Below are positions 13,074 to 28,763 of a DNA stretch of 34,368 nucleotides, piece after piece. The position numbers were made by a program, and so were the translations under genes. The DNA is from Candidatus Gastranaerophilales bacterium (GTDB taxonomy: Bacteria > Cyanobacteriota > Vampirovibrionia > Gastranaerophilales > Gastranaerophilaceae): assembly GCA_944325095.1 (NCBI GenBank), contig CALUYV010000016.1, positions 1-34,368 of the forward strand. The letters run 5' to 3'. Below the pieces are notes generated by a model. It had not been told where the DNA came from. It was given only the letters and a program-made list of their open reading frames with translations, and searched no databases. Every line of letters begins with the position of its first letter. The stretch's first letter is position 1.

Positions 13074-13856
13074 TTAAATAATATTTGCAAAACTCAAAAA
13101 ATATTCTTCTATAACATTCATAAGCATAGGCAGAATCCAAACAAGAATTGCCGCACCAATAACAGGTTTGAACAGAAAACTCAAAGTAAAGACATTAACC
13201 TGCGGTGCGGTTCTTGAAATTACACCCAGAATAATATCCTGTGCCAGAGTCGCAAGCAATATCGGGGCCGCTATTTGCAATCCCATATATAAAGTATTTG
13301 ACGATAACTTTATTAGAAGTTCCATATTAGCAAGTTTTGAAATCTGCATTGCCGAAGAATATACAGGGAAAATTTCGAAACTCCGCAACAGAGCTTTGAA
13401 TAACCAGTAAACTCCGCCGATATTTATAAAAATCAAAATTCCCATAAGAGCGATTAATTTTGTCAAAATAGAAACCTGTGCTGATGTTGTCGGATCCAAA
13501 GCAGTGGCTGACTGCAGCCCCATCTGCATATTAATCATTTCTGCACCGGAATCAACCGCAAGAGTAATTAACTGTGCCATATATCCGATAACAGCACCGG
13601 TTACAACATTTAATAACAGCGACAGCGCAAAAGAATCGCACTGTGCCAGCACTTTATCAGGAGAAAGAAACGGCACAATGAAAATTGTAACCAATAAAGC
13701 AAGAGGAATTTTCACAAGAGAAGGAATATCCCTCCTGTTAAAAATAGGAGCAAATCTGAAGAAACCGAGCATACGTGCAAAAATTAATGCTCCTGCCATA
13801 ATGTAAGCATTCGCTGAAGGAAACATCTGCATTATTGCCGAGTACAAATTATCCAT
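13074..13856 (-). CDS. fliR: Flagellar export gate protein FliR
   Basis: The 260-residue protein is an integral membrane export-gate component, which assembles with FliP and FliQ in the basal-body membrane. It has about six hydrophobic segments, the conserved MINMQMGLQSATALDPTT segment, and the C-terminal signature GLQIAAPILLATLAQDIILGVISRTAPQVNVF. It is the last gene of the operon, three bases after fliQ. Neither flhB nor flhA follows; the next gene, gdhA, is on the other strand. FliR and its type III secretion equivalent SctT cannot be told apart by fold. FliO in the operon favours a flagellar origin. Confidence 0.9.
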   Translation of the reverse strand: MDNLYSAIMQMFPSANAYIMAGALIFARMLGFFRFAPIFNRRDIPSLVKIPLALLVTIFIVPFLSPDKVLAQCDSFALSLLLNVVTGAVIGYMAQLITLAVDSGAEMINMQMGLQSATALDPTTSAQVSILTKLIALMGILIFINIGGVYWLFKALLRSFEIFPVYSSAMQISKLANMELLIKLSSNTLYMGLQIAAPILLATLAQDIILGVISRTAPQVNVFTLSFLFKPVIGAAILVWILPMLMNVIEEYFLSFANII

Positions 13857-13859
13857 TTA

Positions 13860-14348
13860 CTACCTGCCCAAAATCCTCTGTGTTTCAACCAAATCCGGTT
13901 TCGGCATCGCATTTTTTGATGCCGGAATGTATTTTGGCTTCTGTGCCTGATCAAGATAAGGCAATTTGCCCGGATTTTTCATTATTTGTTCTATATTATC
14001 AATATTTTTAAATCTGTCACGCATCTCAGCCGAAAAAGGAATTGTATATTTGTGATAATCAGATTCCAGAACAAAATTATCACTTTTCGGAACAGTATTA
14101 AACGCAAGAACCATTCCTTCCTGAAACAGTCCGGTCAAAAGTCTTACAAACCCGACACCGCCGATTATGATAACAAGGAAAACTCCGAGAATCTTAGGAG
14201 CGGCGGCAATAGTCTGCTCCTGAACCTGCGTAACAGCCTGCAATATACCGACTACAAGCCCGATTCCCGCAGCAACCAGTACGCATGGCATCGATATTGC
14301 CAGCATTATTAAAAAACCTTTTGCTAAGTATTCTAACAGTATTTCCAT
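13860..14348 (-). CDS. fliQ: FliQ with unusual C-terminal extension
   Basis: Residues 1-85 are a normal FliQ: two transmembrane helices (residues 9-37 and 50-80) with VGILQAVTQVQEQTIAAAPKI between them. FliQ is usually about 90 residues. Here the frame continues to 162 residues with a hydrophilic, Lys/Pro-rich tail (DNIEQIMKNPGKLPYLDQAQ and following). The extension is in frame up to a stop three bases before fliR, so it is not a sequencing artefact by appearance. It may contact another export or C-ring component. It starts 14 bases after fliP. Confidence 0.88.
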   Translation of the reverse strand: MEILLEYLAKGFLIMLAISMPCVLVAAGIGLVVGILQAVTQVQEQTIAAAPKILGVFLVIIIGGVGFVRLLTGLFQEGMVLAFNTVPKSDNFVLESDYHKYTIPFSAEMRDRFKNIDNIEQIMKNPGKLPYLDQAQKPKYIPASKNAMPKPDLVETQRILGR

Positions 14349-14362
14349 AATCTGCCCTCACA

Positions 14363-15001
14363 TCAGTTATAACTGGACACAAGCCCTTGAACAATAAGTG
14401 TCCATCCATCAACTGCTATAAATATCAGTAATTTGAACGGCATTGATATGATTGTCGGTGATAACATCATCATACCGAGTGCTAACAGGATATTTGCAAC
14501 AACAAGATCCAGAATTATAAACGGTACAAATATAATAAAACTTATTTCAAAGGATGTTTTCAATTCACTGACAATATAAGCCGGTGCGACTTCCCATATA
14601 GATATATCATCCGGAGATTTCGGCTTAGGTTTTTGCGACATTTCGATAAAAAATGCAAGATCCGCTTCCCTTGTCTGCTTGAGCATAAACTCTTTCAGCG
14701 GCTTGGAACCCTCCTGAATGGCTGCCACCATATCGTGATTCTGTTTATACGGAACAGATCCCATATCATACATTTTTTGAAATGTTGAACCCATTGTATA
14801 AAATGTCAAAATTATAGACAATCCTATTATTACAATTGCAGGCGGTACAGATTGCGTACCCATTGCTGTTTTTAACATTGCAAATACTACAACAAATCTT
14901 AAAAAACTCGTCATACAGCAAAACATAAAAGGCAGTAATGAAAACATTGTCATTACTATCAGCATCTGTAATACGGGATTTAAAGTTTGTAATTGATCCA
15001 T
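14363..15001 (-). CDS. fliP: Flagellar export gate protein FliP
   Basis: The 212-residue protein shows the FliP signatures: SFLRFVVVFAMLKTAMGTQSVPP near the N-terminus, APAYIVSELKTSFEISFIIFVPFIILDLVVANILLALGMMMLSP, and SMPFKLLIFIAVDGW. Four transmembrane helices flank a central soluble loop. FliP forms the core ring of the export gate. Unlike E. coli FliP (245 residues with a cleavable signal), it starts at the first membrane helix, as in SctR proteins. It lies between fliO and fliQ, ten bases after fliO. Confidence 0.93.
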   Translation of the reverse strand: MDQLQTLNPVLQMLIVMTMFSLLPFMFCCMTSFLRFVVVFAMLKTAMGTQSVPPAIVIIGLSIILTFYTMGSTFQKMYDMGSVPYKQNHDMVAAIQEGSKPLKEFMLKQTREADLAFFIEMSQKPKPKSPDDISIWEVAPAYIVSELKTSFEISFIIFVPFIILDLVVANILLALGMMMLSPTIISMPFKLLIFIAVDGWTLIVQGLVSSYN

Positions 15002-15011
15002 AATTATATCC

Positions 15012-15662
15012 TTACAATTCGTTTATTTTTTTAGCCATATCCTTCATCGGAGAACCTGTCGAAATTGATTTTGCCGCAGGGGCTGATTTTGGAGCCGCCG
15101 GCTGCGGATTTCGTACGGAAGGCTGTACCGGCATCTGCACCTGTTTCTGCCTTACCGGCATTCTCACCACCGGTTTTTGCTGCACCGGCTGCTTAACAGG
15201 CATTTGAACGGGATTTCCCGCTCTGGTATCCATTGAATGCCTGATATTTGAAATTCCGATACCCCTTCTTGTTATAGGTTCAAGGTGCACCCGCTTAGAC
15301 TCTGGAGCCGGAGCCGCCTGCCGGCGTTCCTGCCGTTCAACAAATTCCATAGTATTTCTAAATGTCTGATTTGAATTTTGATAATCTTCAATACAATTCA
15401 TATCAGGTCTGCCGCTGTTTAATTTGGAGATTAAAGTTGTTCTGTCTATGTCGGAAGCAATTAAAAACTTTTCGTTTCCAACTCTTATGACCTGAAGGGT
15501 TTTTCTAGGATTTAAATTCATTGTATCTTCAATTTCAATACAATTTGTACGCTTTTTGCCAAGACTGCCGTCCATAATTTTTTTATACACAAACACGGCA
15601 AAACAGATTAAACCTGTCATTGCCATTGTATATACCATAAAATTTGCAACATATCCGCCCAT
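15012..15662 (-). CDS. fliO: FliO-like flagellar biosynthesis protein
   Basis: The 216-residue protein has one N-terminal membrane helix (residues 8-28) followed by a compact domain typical of FliO (NCIEIEDTMNLNPRKTLQVIRVGNEKFLIASDIDRTTLISKL). FliO helps FliP assemble. Beyond residue 110 lies a long low-complexity Pro/Gln/Val/Met tail with repeats such as VQMPVKQPVQQKPVVRMPV. The start has AAGGAGAGG upstream. Position directly before fliP supports the name. FliO is absent from injectisomes, so its presence argues for a flagellum. Confidence 0.75.
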   Translation of the reverse strand: MGGYVANFMVYTMAMTGLICFAVFVYKKIMDGSLGKKRTNCIEIEDTMNLNPRKTLQVIRVGNEKFLIASDIDRTTLISKLNSGRPDMNCIEDYQNSNQTFRNTMEFVERQERRQAAPAPESKRVHLEPITRRGIGISNIRHSMDTRAGNPVQMPVKQPVQQKPVVRMPVRQKQVQMPVQPSVRNPQPAAPKSAPAAKSISTGSPMKDMAKKINEL

Positions 15663-15690
15663 AAAAGCAACCTCTCCTTATTATAAAAAG

Positions 15691-16878
15691 TTATATATTT
15701 TCATCTTCCAGTTCGAAATCACTGTAATCAAATTCTTCATCCTCGGAATTGTTTTCTTCCTCCTCATTTTCGTCATATTCTTCAGAATTTTGAGGATTAT
15801 TATATTGCTCCTCTCCTTCCGGCGGCGGAGCACTTTCAACCGGAGCGGCAGGTGCGGATTTTTTATCTCCCGTTAAAATTTGATTAATTTTAACACCGTA
15901 CCTGTCATTAACAATCACCAGATTCCCGCTTGCAATCGGGTTTCCTTCAACTTTTAAAGTCACATTATTTTCATAAAGGGATGTCAAATCAACAACAAGC
16001 CCGTTTTCTATGCTTTTTAACTCCCCGAGAGATATCTTGACCGCATCAAATTCAGCTGTCATTTCTACTTCCAGACTGTCCCATATATTAGGAGTATTAC
16101 TGCTCATCTCTTCTCCTCCGTCCTCTTCTGCCGGTATCAGTATATCCATATTCGGATTTAATTTTACCTGAAATGCTTTTCCGTTTACCGCAAGCTGCAA
16201 ATTTTCTATATTACTGTCTTCAAATACAACTACATCATCATTTTCCAGATTTTTAATATCAAACAGTGAAAATTTTGTTTTGCCGACAAACACCTGCGCC
16301 ATAGTTTCGGTATTCGGAAAATCTTCTTCTGAAAATTTGTCCTGCTGAGAAACTACAACTTCAGGATTTAATAATACTGCAGGCATAGTAATAAAAACTT
16401 TTCCGGTTTTATTATTATATTCCTCAGTTTCTTTTATTATAAACGTTAGATGAATTACGTCAAAATTATTACGTTTTAATTCATTTTGCGGCGGCGGGCT
16501 CAACAAACCTTTCAAATGCTCAAATAAATAATCATTAAATGATGTAATAATCTTGGCTTCTAATTCGGATATTTTATTGATATTGAACTTCATTTTCGAC
16601 TGACCCAGAATTTTGGACAATATCAAATCTATAGTCTTTGATGTTAAGCGGAAAAACATTTCATAATCTTTTCCTATCTTAATCTTTGTAACAAAACAAG
16701 ATTCATCCCCCAAAAGACAATTTATATTTTTACTGATTCCGATTAGTTCCATACGAAAATTAGGGTTGAAAAATTCATTGCAAGATTCCTGTACAATTTT
16801 CGGGAAAGTGTTTTGATACCAGTTATACTCTTTGCATAACTGATTTGTTGATATTGAATTTTGTAATTCTTCCTTCAT
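15691..16878 (-). CDS. Double-SpoA switch protein (FliM/FliN- or SctQ-like)
   Basis: The 395-residue protein has an N-terminal region (residues 20-185) comparable in position to the FliM middle domain. A first SpoA-like domain follows (about 194-248: QVFVGKTKFSLFDIKNLENDDVVVF), then a second (about 266-336: VEMTAEFDAVKISLGELKSIENG and GVKINQIL). The end is a 57-residue tail rich in Pro, Asn, Glu and Asp. FliM and FliN normally carry one SpoA domain each. Two in one chain is the layout of injectisome SctQ. It should build the cytoplasmic C-ring or sorting platform. AAGGGA precedes the ATG by eight bases. It is the first gene of the fliOPQR operon. Confidence 0.7.
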   Translation of the reverse strand: MKEELQNSISTNQLCKEYNWYQNTFPKIVQESCNEFFNPNFRMELIGISKNINCLLGDESCFVTKIKIGKDYEMFFRLTSKTIDLILSKILGQSKMKFNINKISELEAKIITSFNDYLFEHLKGLLSPPPQNELKRNNFDVIHLTFIIKETEEYNNKTGKVFITMPAVLLNPEVVVSQQDKFSEEDFPNTETMAQVFVGKTKFSLFDIKNLENDDVVVFEDSNIENLQLAVNGKAFQVKLNPNMDILIPAEEDGGEEMSSNTPNIWDSLEVEMTAEFDAVKISLGELKSIENGLVVDLTSLYENNVTLKVEGNPIASGNLVIVNDRYGVKINQILTGDKKSAPAAPVESAPPPEGEEQYNNPQNSEEYDENEEEENNSEDEEFDYSDFELEDENI

Positions 16879-24104: not shown

Positions 24105-24365
24105 ATGAAAAAAAAATTCGATATAAGAAAAACATTTGAAACTTTTTTGAGAGAGCCTCTTAGTATTTTAACTGAGGGGCTGTTTCAAATCGTAAATGTT
24201 CAGGCAAACATTTTCAACCAGCAATCCTCTTTCAGTGTTGATTTTTTAAACAATAAAACTCAATTGACCGTTGTTAACAACGAAAAAATGTGTAATTTAT
24301 TCCGAACAGTGTTATATAAAAGTAAATTAAAGGAAATTCAGGAGAAAAATACGGTATCTAAATGA
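24105..24365 (+). CDS. Small protein of unknown function upstream of engB
   Basis: I do not recognise this 86-residue protein. It begins MKKKFDIRKTFETFLREP at an ATG five bases after the TPR gene; an upstream in-frame start at 24042 lies inside the TPR gene and is less likely. The sequence has a basic start, then a mixed region (LSILTEGLFQIVNVQANIFNQQ) that may form strands and helices, with no signal peptide. Its stop overlaps the engB ATG in ATGA, so translation is coupled. Confidence 0.6.
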   Translation: MKKKFDIRKTFETFLREPLSILTEGLFQIVNVQANIFNQQSSFSVDFLNNKTQLTVVNNEKMCNLFRTVLYKSKLKEIQEKNTVSK

Positions 24366-24934
24366 AACCATTTATAAATGCAAAATTTTTAATAAGCGCA
24401 GAAAAGTTAAGCCAGTGTCCAGACCATACACTGCCTGAGTTTCCATTGCTCGGACGCTCGAATGTGGGGAAATCTTCTTTTATTAATGCTCTTGCAAATC
24501 ATAAAAAACTCGCAAAAACTTCCAATGTTCCCGGGAAAACGAGATTAATAAACTTTTTTAATTTCTCGGATATTTTTATGATAGCGGATTTGCCGGGATA
24601 CGGGTATGCTAAAGTTTCAATAGAAGAAAGAAATAAATGGCAGAAATATCTTGAAGAATACCTTTTAAAAAGAGAACAAATTAAAACACTGATACAATTC
24701 ATAGACAGCAGACACGAAATTCAAAAAAACGACTATAACATGAGAGAATGGATACTCGCCTATAAACTGCCGGTAATAACCGTTGTAACAAAAATTGATT
24801 GTATATCTAAAAATAAAATTCAGAGTACACTAAATCATGTCCAAAAAGAGTTCGGCGGAGAAATATTCCCCTTTAGTGCGGTAGATAAACGATATAACGA
24901 AAAAATTATAGCCTTCCTGACCGGTGACTATTAA
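24362..24934 (+). CDS. engB: Ribosome biogenesis GTP-binding protein EngB/YsxC
   Basis: The 190 residues match the YihA/YsxC family, needed for 50S assembly. The motifs are LGRSNVGKSSFINAL (G1, about residues 30-44), GKTRLINFF (G2), DLPGYGYAKVS (G3), VVTKIDC (G4) and FPFSAVD (G5). The start overlaps the stop of the small upstream gene. Two ribosome-assembly GTPases, Der and EngB, are thus both in this window but in separate units. Confidence 0.95.
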   Translation: MKPFINAKFLISAEKLSQCPDHTLPEFPLLGRSNVGKSSFINALANHKKLAKTSNVPGKTRLINFFNFSDIFMIADLPGYGYAKVSIEERNKWQKYLEEYLLKREQIKTLIQFIDSRHEIQKNDYNMREWILAYKLPVITVVTKIDCISKNKIQSTLNHVQKEFGGEIFPFSAVDKRYNEKIIAFLTGDY

Positions 24935-25009
24935 TATTTGTTAAAATTATAATAAAAAACAGGCAAAAATATTCAATTATATTTTTTTATATCTACAGGT
25001 GGTGCGTAA

Positions 25010-26155
25010 ATGGTCAGGATTCTGTCATTATTAAAATATACAGCAAATAAAATCCCTTCATTAAAAGGGGTAAGGCTTGCGCCGCCGCATACTTCTCCTG
25101 TTAAAATTCAATCGGAACTTCCCGCTGATACCGTAGTTTTTCAACGATTCAGTCCGAAACATCAAACAAGCATTTCCGAATCCGCATTAACCCGCGGGAT
25201 AAAACATATTACAGGCTCTTCTGCAGAAGATTCACGCGCCTTGCAGCCGATTATTGAAGAGTGCTTTGTAGGAATAAAAACACCTGCATCTGCAATAAGA
25301 ATTTTCCGCAGACAGGGAACTGAACTCAGACCGGATAGAGCCATATATATTCTAAATCCGAGTTCACTGGAAAAACTTGCAAGAGAAATGGGCACAAGTA
25401 ACTCCTATATGTCAGAATTATACAAACGGGCAAATCATACGGGCACCATAATTGACAGAACAAATGCATCACAGATTGCAGAAAATATAATCAAAAACGG
25501 GGAAAAGAAAATTACAATTGTTGTTCCCGATGATTTTGCAGGCAGCGGAAGAAGTATGATTGTAAATACCGCCGAAACATTAAAGAATATAGATATTCCT
25601 AAAGATGTGGAAATTGAACTCATATTATCACCAATGTGCGCAACACCTTATGCTAAAAAAGCATTTAAAATGTTTGAAAAATTTGATGGCGATGAACTTA
25701 TGAAAAACGGAGTTCTCAATAAAGACAAACTCCCCGGGAAAAACGCGGATAATTATCTAAATGATTCCGAAATTATCAGAAATTTTACCGAAAAATATAA
25801 AGACAGGATGACAATCAGAACTTCCTCTCATATAATAACTGCAAAACCGTACAATGAAACGAATGCATATATTAAATTAAAAGAAACCAATCCCGATGCG
25901 GCTCAGGCCATTGATATTCTTATGACGGAACACGGAAAAGGCTACGGCCGCCCGGGTTCCTGCGGAACAATCGTACTTGTCCCAGGCAGAGGGAACATTT
26001 TAAAAACCCCTAACAACAACTGTTACGGGGCACTCCCATTCATTTTGGAAGAAGGCGGAACAATAGGAAAAATTAAAAATCCTAATCAAAAATGGTCTGC
26101 AAAAAAATGGGAATTTTATGTAAAAAAGATGGCTAAAGAACTTGGAGTAATATAA
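25010..26155 (+). CDS. Phosphoribosyltransferase-like protein
   Basis: The 381-residue protein has a low-complexity N-terminus (1-60, Pro/Ser/Lys rich, no signal peptide). In the middle, EKKITIVVPDDFAGSGRSMI (about residues 165-185) fits the PRPP-binding loop pattern of type I phosphoribosyltransferases: four hydrophobics, two acids, then small residues with G and S. Near the C-terminus, HGKGYGRPGSCGTIVLVPGRG and TPNNNCYGALPFILEEGG resemble the end of PRTase-CE type proteins, where a PNN-LP motif follows. That family match is from memory and tentative. It is followed one base later by a kinase-like gene. AGGTGG lies before the ATG. Confidence 0.5.
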   Translation: MVRILSLLKYTANKIPSLKGVRLAPPHTSPVKIQSELPADTVVFQRFSPKHQTSISESALTRGIKHITGSSAEDSRALQPIIEECFVGIKTPASAIRIFRRQGTELRPDRAIYILNPSSLEKLAREMGTSNSYMSELYKRANHTGTIIDRTNASQIAENIIKNGEKKITIVVPDDFAGSGRSMIVNTAETLKNIDIPKDVEIELILSPMCATPYAKKAFKMFEKFDGDELMKNGVLNKDKLPGKNADNYLNDSEIIRNFTEKYKDRMTIRTSSHIITAKPYNETNAYIKLKETNPDAAQAIDILMTEHGKGYGRPGSCGTIVLVPGRGNILKTPNNNCYGALPFILEEGGTIGKIKNPNQKWSAKKWEFYVKKMAKELGVI

Positions 26156-26156
26156 A

Positions 26157-26783
26157 ATGAAAATCAACAATTACCTTGAAAAATTTCAAATAGCAGCAAT
26201 ATTAAAAAAGAATTCCGAAAATGATAAATTTTCCGGTAAGATAAACGAATTGTGCAAACAATTCAAACAGGAAAACAATTTAATTGATATTATTAAAATA
26301 TTCAATAAAGACAAAACATTAAAAATGCAGGAAGCTTCTGCTTACTATTTAGAAAATTATAAATTTATAATCGGAACCAAAGAAAATATACAGGATTATA
26401 AAAATAACTTAAACCTGTTAAAAAAATATAATATTTCATGCGCCCCGAAAATTGAACAGACTGTATCAAACAAAAATAAACAGTACATCATGCTGGTTAT
26501 GAAACTTCCGGAAAAAGAATCCGTAATGAAAAATTATACAGCAAATCCAAACATGGTTGATACTCTCGCAAAATGCCAGTTCATAAATGAATTGGAAAAT
26601 ATGGCAAGAAGCAGCAAAAATTATAATCCGCTGATTACTCAAGAGCCAAGCAGTATAAAAGTTACCTCTGACGGACGGTTATATGTATCCGATTGGAATG
26701 AAATGGATAAGTTCGCTAATGATAAAGAACAGGCGCAATATTTTAAACAATTGCGAAAATTGCTTAATCTGATATTGATTTAA
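26157..26783 (+). CDS. Small protein with kinase-like C-terminal motif, unknown function
   Basis: The 208-residue protein follows the previous gene by one base (TAA-A-ATG), so they are coupled. Weak kinase-like features are QYIMLVMKLPEKES in the position of a hinge, and near the C-terminus PSSIKVTSDGRLYVSDWNEM, similar to the metal-binding segment after the catalytic loop in small-molecule phosphotransferases. A glycine-rich loop and HxD motif are not seen, so it may be a remnant, a pseudokinase or a chance match. Its TAA forms part of a TTAA shared with the convergent gene. Confidence 0.4.
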   Translation: MKINNYLEKFQIAAILKKNSENDKFSGKINELCKQFKQENNLIDIIKIFNKDKTLKMQEASAYYLENYKFIIGTKENIQDYKNNLNLLKKYNISCAPKIEQTVSNKNKQYIMLVMKLPEKESVMKNYTANPNMVDTLAKCQFINELENMARSSKNYNPLITQEPSSIKVTSDGRLYVSDWNEMDKFANDKEQAQYFKQLRKLLNLILI

Positions 26784-26816
26784 CCGTTTGAATCTCTCAG
26801 GTCGGTTAATATTTTT
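26780..26816 (+). terminator. Terminator built on the shared stop codons
   Basis: TTAACCGTTTGA (26780-26791) pairs with TCAGG and CGGTTAA (26797-26801 and 26803-26809), with one bulged base and two G-T pairs. A 5-base loop separates the arms. TATTTTT follows. The stem begins with the TTAA that holds both convergent stop codons and extends into the last codons of the opposing gene. It should end transcription of the + strand pair. Confidence 0.6.
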
Positions 26817-27388
26817 ATAAATTCCTCTTTGGTAATAATTGTCGTTGCAGCGTCAGACTTCCCTCTTGTATGGGTAAGAGTTTTGCCGCAGGTATCTTTG
26901 AGAGCCTGCCTGAATATGGCATTCTGTTCATAACAAGCCTTGAATGCTCTCACCAGCAGTTTATTATATTTGTTTGAAAATCTGTCATATTCATCTTCCT
27001 GCCAGTATAATTTGTGAGTGGAAAGCCACTGGGTGAATTTTTTAGAACGTTCTTTGGCACTTCCTCCGTACATACCGCAGATTTCTTTCTGTTTAATCTT
27101 ATCTTTAACCTTCAAACTCTGTAAAAATCCTTCTATTGATGCACATTTTACACCGTCAAAAACAAATTCCTTAGGTGCAAGATTACTTAAAACATTAGCA
27201 GGATACAAACCGCTTGAATATATATCCAGAGTATTTGTTTCCTTATTAAATGTATCTTTTAAAAGATGTCCGTTTCTGCTTCTTGCAAAAAAATCTTCTT
27301 TCATTTTTGGCAAAAATCCCGTATAAGCAATATTTTTCTTTGGTCTGTTTGAATAAGTTATATTATTTGGATACAAAGATATTAACAT
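26780..27388 (-). CDS. NADAR/YbiA-family protein
   Basis: The 202-residue protein has an N-terminal leader of about 50 residues (LYPNNITYSNRPKKNIAYTGFLP) and a NADAR-like domain: YSSGLYPANVLSNLAPKEFVFDG, then the hallmark ASIEGFLQSLKV (usually SvEh-qa-K), GGSAKERSKKF, LLVRAFKACYEQNAIFRQALKDT and GKTLTHT. NADAR proteins are N-glycosidases; members act on riboflavin biosynthesis intermediates or remove ADP-ribose from guanine. The substrate here is unknown. The fit of domain order is good, with the key Glu in SIEG. GGTG lies seven bases before the ATG. It faces the phosphoribosyltransferase-like cassette. Confidence 0.7.
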   Translation of the reverse strand: MLISLYPNNITYSNRPKKNIAYTGFLPKMKEDFFARSRNGHLLKDTFNKETNTLDIYSSGLYPANVLSNLAPKEFVFDGVKCASIEGFLQSLKVKDKIKQKEICGMYGGSAKERSKKFTQWLSTHKLYWQEDEYDRFSNKYNKLLVRAFKACYEQNAIFRQALKDTCGKTLTHTRGKSDAATTIITKEEFIKILTDLRDSNG

Positions 27389-27461
27389 ATTTCTACACCG
27401 GTTAACAAGTACGTACCTTAATAAAATCCGTAAAGGTGAAAAATTTATATATTTAAGTGAT

Positions 27462-27481
27462 TTGTAAACAAATATTTACAA
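27462..27481. promoter_or_regulatory. Perfect palindrome in the flavodiiron gene promoter
   Basis: TTGTAAA-N6-TTTACAA, a perfect 20-base palindrome, 79 bases before the start of the flavodiiron gene. Its right half overlaps a possible -35 (TTTACA), 15 bases before TATTAT at 27496-27501. A dimeric regulator of the Rex or CRP/FNR type is plausible by shape; the exact sequence is not a standard box that I know. Confidence 0.45.
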
Positions 27482-27560
27482 TAATAATAAATATATATTA
27501 TACATTAAACAGACTATTTTTTGTGATATCATTAGTAAAGATAGTAAAGAGGAGAAAAAG

Positions 27561-28763
27561 ATGCATAATATAAAAAAAATCACGGAAGATTTATTCTGGG
27601 TCGGAGCAAACGACAGAAGAATTGCACTGTTTGAAAGTGTTTACCCTGTTCCGTCCGGAGTTTCTTATAATTCATATCTGCTGCTTGATGAAAAAACAGT
27701 ACTTTTAGATACCGTAGATAAAGCAGTAACACATCAATTTATGGAAAACATTGAGCACGCACTAAACGGCAGACACCTTGATTATATGATTATCAATCAC
27801 ATGGAGCCTGATCATTGTGCGGAAATTCCGACTATTGTGAATAAATATCCGGATGTAAAAATTGTCTGCAACGCAAAAATACAGGCTATGATTAAACAAT
27901 TTTTCGATTTTGAACTGGATGATAATCAATATATGATAGTTAAAGAAGGCGACAGTTTAAATACAGGCAGACACAATTTAACCTTTGTCTTTGCTCCAAT
28001 GGTGCACTGGCCTGAAGTTATGGTGACTTATGATACGACAGACAAAATATTGTTCTCTGCAGATGCTTTCGGTTCTTTCGGAGCGGTTGACGGAAATATT
28101 TTTGCCGATGAAGTTGATTATGAACATCGTTATATGGATGAGGCAAGAAGATATTACACAAACATTGTCGGAAAATACGGCCCTCAGGTTACGGCTGTCC
28201 TAAATAAAGCGGCAGGTCTTGATATTAAAATGATTTGTCCGCTTCACGGATATGTTTGGAGAAAAAACCTTGAAACTTTTATAGACAAATACACAAAATG
28301 GGCATCATACACACCGGAATTAAATTCTGTTCTGATTGTTTATGCTTCCGTTTACGGCGGAACACAGAATGCGGCAGAAATCCTTTCTACACAACTTGCC
28401 CAATATGGTGTGAAAGATATAAAAATGTATGATGTTTCAGTAACACATCCTTCATACATTCTGGCTGATGCTTTTAAATATTCGCATATTGTATTTGCAT
28501 CAACAACATACAATAACGGTATTTTCGTTAATATGGAAAACTTCCTGCACGATATCGTTGCACACAATTTACAGAATCGTAAAGTTGCGGTTATTGAAAA
28601 CGGAAGCTGGGCTCCAACCTGCGGCAAATTAATGACCGAATTAATTTCAAAATTAAAAAATACAGAAATCATCGGCTCCAATGTAATGATAAAATCCGCA
28701 GTAAAAGCAGATAAAACAGCAGAACTTGACAGCCTTGCCAAGGCAATAGCAGATTCAATATAA
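27561..28763 (+). CDS. Flavodiiron protein (oxygen/NO reductase)
   Basis: The 400-residue protein has the two-domain layout of the FprA/ROO family, which reduces O2 to water or NO to N2O in anaerobes. In the N-terminal metallo-beta-lactamase-like domain the diiron ligands are all present: H80-x-E82-x-D84 (HMEPDH), H149, D168 and H229. The C-terminal flavodoxin domain starts near residue 255 with VYASVYGGTQNAAE (FMN phosphate loop). No rubredoxin or NADH-oxidase domain is fused, so an electron donor must come from elsewhere. GAGGAG lies before the ATG. A palindrome upstream suggests redox control. A terminator follows directly. Confidence 0.94.
   Translation: MHNIKKITEDLFWVGANDRRIALFESVYPVPSGVSYNSYLLLDEKTVLLDTVDKAVTHQFMENIEHALNGRHLDYMIINHMEPDHCAEIPTIVNKYPDVKIVCNAKIQAMIKQFFDFELDDNQYMIVKEGDSLNTGRHNLTFVFAPMVHWPEVMVTYDTTDKILFSADAFGSFGAVDGNIFADEVDYEHRYMDEARRYYTNIVGKYGPQVTAVLNKAAGLDIKMICPLHGYVWRKNLETFIDKYTKWASYTPELNSVLIVYASVYGGTQNAAEILSTQLAQYGVKDIKMYDVSVTHPSYILADAFKYSHIVFASTTYNNGIFVNMENFLHDIVAHNLQNRKVAVIENGSWAPTCGKLMTELISKLKNTEIIGSNVMIKSAVKADKTAELDSLAKAIADSI

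Follow-up and report, generated by a model that had tools for sequence, protein, structure and literature searches.

A transferable gene cassette of Gastranaerophilales pairing a PRTase-CE protein with a kinase-fold protein and a NADAR glycosidase: a candidate toxin-antidote unit

Introduction

Which function could bring a phosphoribosyltransferase (PRTase)-like protein, a small kinase-like protein and a NADAR-type N-glycosidase together in one locus? The question is raised by a 34,368-nucleotide stretch of DNA from Candidatus Gastranaerophilales bacterium (contig 16 of a draft genome, CALUYV010000016.1, positions 1 to 34,368; hereafter the window), for which a preliminary description had placed three open reading frames (ORFs) between positions 25010 and 27388 and had proposed that they could form a defence, effector or salvage system. 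Gastranaerophilales, Cyanobacteria of the gut that do not photosynthesise, are little studied and known mostly from metagenome-assembled genomes (MAGs). We found all three ORFs at these positions, each of them complete, and report here that they belong together as a transferable cassette, which is somewhat more apt to be a unit of toxin (or effector), pseudokinase partner and deribosylating antidote than anything else.

PRTase effectors have been described in retrons (PMC12548924), and PRTase domains occur in phage polyvalent proteins, where their role was called enigmatic (PMC5512222). NADAR proteins reverse the ADP-ribosylation of guanine and are proven antitoxins of ADP-ribosyltransferase (ART) toxins (PMC11543638, PMC11125620).

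Results

The three genes of the cassette and the conserved motifs of the first gene are the following:
25010-26155, + strand: gene 1, PRTase-CE protein of 381 aa (complete ORF; Pfam PF24390 and predicted fold)
25514-25555, + strand: loop of gene 1 that binds phosphoribosyl pyrophosphate (PRPP), VVPDDFAGSGRS, residues ~169-182, conserved in 12 diverse relatives
26009-26020, + strand: C-terminal PNNN motif of gene 1, residues 334-337, conserved in relatives and orthologues
26157-26783, + strand: gene 2, small kinase-fold protein of 208 aa, probable pseudokinase (complete ORF; predicted structure)
26780-27388, - strand: gene 3, predicted gp30.3-type NADAR N-glycosidase of 202 aa (complete ORF; PF08010)

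Gene 2 starts 1 nt past the stop codon of gene 1 on the same strand, and in congeneric relatives the stop codon of gene 1 abuts the ATG of gene 2. Gene 3 is convergent with genes 1 and 2, with a 4-nt overlap between it and gene 2. The site of the cassette is defined by two flanking genes:
24935-27560, no strand: cassette insertion locus, from engB to fprA
24362-24934: engB, flanking gene
27561-28763: fprA, flanking gene

The cassette is present in 4 of 46 congeneric genomes. All three genes occupy the same site as in the window in the genomes G003, G006 and G020 (G and L numbers are our labels for genomes and loci), and in 13 other congeners engB is directly followed by fprA. Since the two flanking genes abut in these 13 genomes, the cassette is an accessory insertion, acquired or lost in one piece. 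In a genome of another genus (G202), all three genes are found with order and orientations unchanged and with unrelated genes on either side; the cassette relocates as a unit. Contigs of MAGs may be misbinned, but the four congeners share synteny nonetheless. No relative turned up when plasmids and phages were searched by tblastn.

For a wider view, we scanned 383 genomes of the Gastranaerophilales family with profiles of the three proteins, each built from 11-12 diverse members. A PRTase-CE match lay immediately 5' of 29 of the 43 gene 2 matches, on the same strand and at a distance of at most 600 bp, and within 2.5 kb of 20 of the 27 NADAR matches. Some of the linked loci had served to build the profiles; among the NADAR matches outside profile building, linkage to PRTase-CE was still found for 13 of 16. 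By chance, a gene would fall within such a distance of a PRTase-CE with a probability of about 1e-3. Five of the remaining seven NADAR genes adjoin ART-like genes (L047, L052, L053, L171 and L173), where the ART label comes from motifs recognised by eye and a hidden Markov model (HMM) made here from three proteins, Pfam having given the domain no name; another (L049) adjoins a long protein of no known type, and one copy is degraded. Repeated co-occurrence, which the preliminary description had named as support for its proposal, was thus found in four species, elsewhere in a second genus and across the family, and it is confirmed that the three genes belong together.

Gene 1 matched the Pfam family PRTase-CE (PF24390) over residues 128-275 with 30.8 bits (E 3.6e-7), above the cut-off of 27 bits, although the match is partial and covers profile positions 74-204 of 253. 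Its PRPP loop reads I-V-V-P-D174-D175-F-A-G-S-G-R-S, acidic pair included, and bears out the earlier claim of such a loop: D174, D175, G180 and S182 are invariant both in six orthologues and in the 12 diverse relatives. What had been described as a PNN-LP-like end is the PNNN motif, invariant in the orthologues and at least 90% conserved in the relatives, and both motifs are kept even in relatives at 16-26% identity. An AlphaFold2 model made from an alignment of six sequences only reached a predicted local distance difference test (pLDDT) score of 79; residues 1-51 are of low confidence and predicted to be disordered, and residues 52-381 resemble a type I PRTase. The best 50 rows of a VIA comparison were all PRTase-type folds (OPRT, UPRT, APRT, XPRT, HGPRT and relatives), the best match having Z 9.1 over 113 aligned residues at a root-mean-square deviation (rmsd) of 2.6 Å. 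Foldseek returned no significant match for this model, its rows being only insignificant aminotransferase-like ones, and sequence searches of solved structures found nothing. The predicted type I PRTase fold therefore has three joint supports: motif, Pfam match and VIA ranking. Weak PRTase matches in five congeners (L005-L009) were rejected as relatives; they fall in a long (about 820 aa) protein that lacks the PRPP motif, as read in L005.

For gene 2, searches of Pfam, PHROGs, NCBIfam and PADLOC gave no convincing HMM match, with matches at chance level only, so that of the profiles suggested in the preliminary description those for PRTase-CE and NADAR matched in the cassette and the kinase profile did not. 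The structure predicted for gene 2 (pLDDT 85, from an alignment of only five sequences) nevertheless resembled protein kinases with a Foldseek probability of 1.00 (E 5e-5), and all VIA matches listed were kinase-fold chains with Z 8.3-10.9, the best aligning 147 residues at an rmsd of 3.4 Å. As modelled, the fold is that of a small protein kinase. Among 34 homologues, none of the positions where the catalytic Lys, HxD Asp and DFG Asp would be expected is conserved, and the Asp preceding the Trp is present in about half of them; we therefore call the protein a probable pseudokinase. The earlier kinase-like label, given for a DGRLYVSDW motif, holds for the predicted fold but not for an active kinase. 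Long toxin-like proteins with another C-terminal domain were also seen next to gene 2 homologues (L183 1319-5206, L163, L168-L170 and L182).

Gene 3 matched PF08010 (Phage_30_3) with 140.6 bits (E 3.7e-41) and PHROG 652 with E 1.7e-39, which agrees with the NADAR assignment made before. E86, K93 and H173 are invariant in 11 homologues. E86 and K93 are seven residues apart, at the same spacing as E88 and K95 of the E. coli C7 NADAR (PMC11543638), and a His is also what has been described in phage NADARs (PMC11543638, PMC11125620). The Glu/Lys segment aligned at the same spacing with YbiA (2b3w) in a profile comparison of weak score, and there was a weak match to TIGR02464 (NADAR/YbiA); the riboflavin intermediates on which YbiA acts are cut at their N-glycosidic bond (PMC11543638). 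From its sequence, gene 3 is predicted to be a gp30.3-type NADAR glycosidase that has retained the catalytic Glu and Lys.

Many PRTase-CE domains in the family lie at the C-terminal end of long proteins (about 830-2060 aa). With the Pfam PRTase-CE profile, L156 and L054 scored above the cut-off, whereas L045 and L048 fell slightly short of it. An N-terminal module (residues 90-340 of L054) is common to PRTase-CE, ART-like (L171) and AvrB_AvrC (L183) proteins at 26-62% identity; in L183 the module is shared at low identity and the C-terminus matches AvrB_AvrC (PF05394). One N-terminus with exchangeable PRTase-CE, ART or AvrB C-termini is a hallmark of polymorphic toxins, seen in the long relatives; gene 1 of the window has no long N-terminal module. 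NADAR genes adjoin both the PRTase-CE and the ART versions of this architecture. By these sequence features, polymorphic-toxin-like proteins form a large family in gut Gastranaerophilales.

Not every unit has NADAR as its third gene. In loci without it, gene 2 is followed by a gene for an ADP-ribosylglycohydrolase in L148, L151, L154, L155, L156 and L161 (PF03747 with 244 bits for L155, the other loci being assigned by sequence likeness) or a PHP protein in L044, L045, L046 and L144 (PF02811 for L045), and there is no recognisable third gene in L145, L149, L160 and L162. The best reason for reading the third gene as an eraser is that two of its three families are known deribosylases.

Several further arrangements were observed. 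A NADAR with a fused C-terminal domain, by eye similar to a dual-specificity phosphatase, lies directly 3' of a PRTase-CE gene (L041 1811-3034), tandem double-NADAR proteins adjoin PRTase-CE genes, most of them short (L054, L150, L152, L153, L157, L158, L174 and L175), and one protein holds a PRTase-CE followed by a region that looks RelA/SpoT-like by eye (L051 6793-11001). Several NADAR- and ADP-ribosylglycohydrolase-like genes and a phosphatase-like fusion are clustered in a Prevotella MAG (L189 1-15800) and other Bacteroidales, together with a distant gene 2-like protein (E 1e-5). These loci are a candidate ADP-ribose gene cluster of rumen and gut Bacteroidales.

The low-confidence N-termini encoded by the genes at 25010 and 26780, and those of other proteins of the clade, contain a short F/Y/L-x-G motif, possibly a lineage-specific sorting tag. 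As an export tag, N-terminal F-x-G was rejected, since its enrichment at N-termini is no more than about twofold (8.9% vs 3.6-4.3% in 395 kb of G006). Elsewhere in the window (13074-16878, - strand) lie fliR, fliQ, fliP, fliO and a FliN/SctQ-like gene, and no flagellin was detected in the genome. FlhA, FliF and rod-like proteins were found in six of six genomes tested, and one relative (G232) has flagellins and a second FlhA/FliF set. Flagellar export genes without flagellin are a candidate for a filament-less type III export system, as far as gene content can tell.

Discussion

We consider it slightly more probable than its opposite that the cassette is a toxin-antidote unit working as follows. 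The PRTase-CE would use PRPP to put a phosphoribosyl group on a nitrogen of its target, most likely a nucleic-acid base and possibly a protein or nucleotide. The co-transcribed gene 2 product would bind the PRTase-CE as a chaperone or inhibitor, and the convergent NADAR would hydrolyse the ribosyl N-glycosidic bond, restore the target and so protect the producer. The riboflavin intermediates cleaved by YbiA carry a 5-phosphoribosyl group, the type of bond that a PRTase makes; together with the deribosylation known for NADARs, this means that NADAR chemistry fits the product of a PRTase. Because gene 1 of the window lacks the long N-terminal region, this version may act within the producing cell or leave it by a signal not yet recognised. 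Among the options of the preliminary description, an effector fits best, since the homologues are C-terminal domains of long polymorphic-toxin-like proteins.

The proposed unit resembles the DarT1-NADAR (DarTG1) and YarT-YbiA pairs in that a NADAR-family antidote would stand beside a ribosyl-adding toxin. In those pairs, however, the toxin is an NAD-using ART, whereas the cassette has a PRTase-CE with a PRPP fold plus a pseudokinase, and its NADAR is of the gp30.3 type with His, unlike their antidotes. DarTG1 is defined by a DarT ART beside NADAR; the neighbour here is a PRTase-CE. With type III-A retrons the cassette shares the PRTase effector domain (PF24390), and gene 1 matched PADLOC PRTase_III-A weakly (E 8e-6), but its partners are a pseudokinase and a predicted deribosylase, and no reverse transcriptase was recognised among the neighbouring ORFs in the ORF list and library scans. 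As in polymorphic toxin systems, the long relatives share an N-terminus with varied C-termini and have a partner gene directly 3'; in contrast to these systems, the antidotes would be enzymes (NADAR, ADP-ribosylglycohydrolase or PHP) and the window copy has no N-terminal module. In Legionella SidE-SidJ, compared by description only, a kinase-fold protein likewise stands beside a ribosyl-transferring effector and reversal enzymes, but SidE depends on NAD and has ubiquitin as its target.

The same genes could be read in other ways. The PRTase-CE might combine PRPP with a free base into a small nucleotide, toxic or signalling, which the NADAR would destroy; this would still be a toxin-antidote pair, and the gene 1 model does match base PRTases (OPRT, APRT, UPRT), YbiA-type NADARs act on N-glycosides of low molecular weight (PMC11543638) and phage NADARs were argued to favour soluble ADP-ribose derivatives (PMC9503650). 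We regard a soluble product as rather unlikely, however, because in this clade NADAR also adjoins ART toxins and is swapped with ADP-ribosylglycohydrolase, which suggests that a covalent mark is removed. It seems improbable, too, that the proteins are exported effectors against a eukaryotic host or competitors, the gene 2 product then being a secretion chaperone and the NADAR serving for self-protection or as co-effector. Long homologues with common N-terminal modules do end in ART, AvrB or PRTase-CE, and FlhA and FliF are present although neither the window genome nor four relatives gave a flagellin match, but no secretion signal was identified and gene 1 is of the short form. A housekeeping role in nucleotide or riboflavin salvage, in which PRTase and N-glycosidase recycle damaged intermediates, would agree with the damage-control role of NADAR/YbiA in riboflavin biosynthesis to which the weak TIGR02464 match alludes. 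The salvage option of the preliminary description is nevertheless disfavoured and hardly credible, given the patchy presence in congeners, the empty site, the relocation and the fusion of homologues to toxin-like N-termini.

Several observations weigh against the toxin-antidote unit that we prefer. The linkage of the genes is observed directly, whereas phosphoribosyl transfer by gene 1, its removal by gene 3 and the binding of gene 2 to gene 1 are steps that we infer. Most weak PRTase-CE-like matches in the family lack the partners (78 of 91 are without gene 2 and 85 of 91 without NADAR), and the NADAR loci examined outside Gastranaerophilales, mostly in Bacteroidales, had no PRTase-CE neighbour by our own profile or by motif. 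About a dozen gene 2 homologues adjoin other toxin domains, of the AvrB type where identified, and gene 2 is not PRTase-specific. The NADAR gene faces genes 1 and 2 and may be expressed separately, and PHP is a phosphoesterase family that is not a known deribosylase.

A more general proposal, which we put forward only tentatively, is that PRTase-CEs are PRPP-dependent toxins that phosphoribosylate macromolecules, with NADAR, ADP-ribosylglycohydrolase and PHP as interchangeable erasers and the pseudokinase as a dedicated partner; as part of it, the phosphoribosyl mark would be a covalent modification, not described so far, parallel to ADP-ribosylation. PRTase effectors have been named in several conflict systems, and we found no open-access paper that says what they do. 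Our search of the open-access literature likewise found no description of a PRTase-CE/pseudokinase/NADAR cassette, and one may exist elsewhere. The adjacent antidote of known chemistry makes the function of a PRTase effector directly testable: if the NADAR rescues cells from the PRTase-CE, the product of the toxin must be a ribosyl N-glycoside. Such a result would establish a counterpart of ADP-ribosylation that is based on PRPP, and the NADARs would gain a new class of partner.
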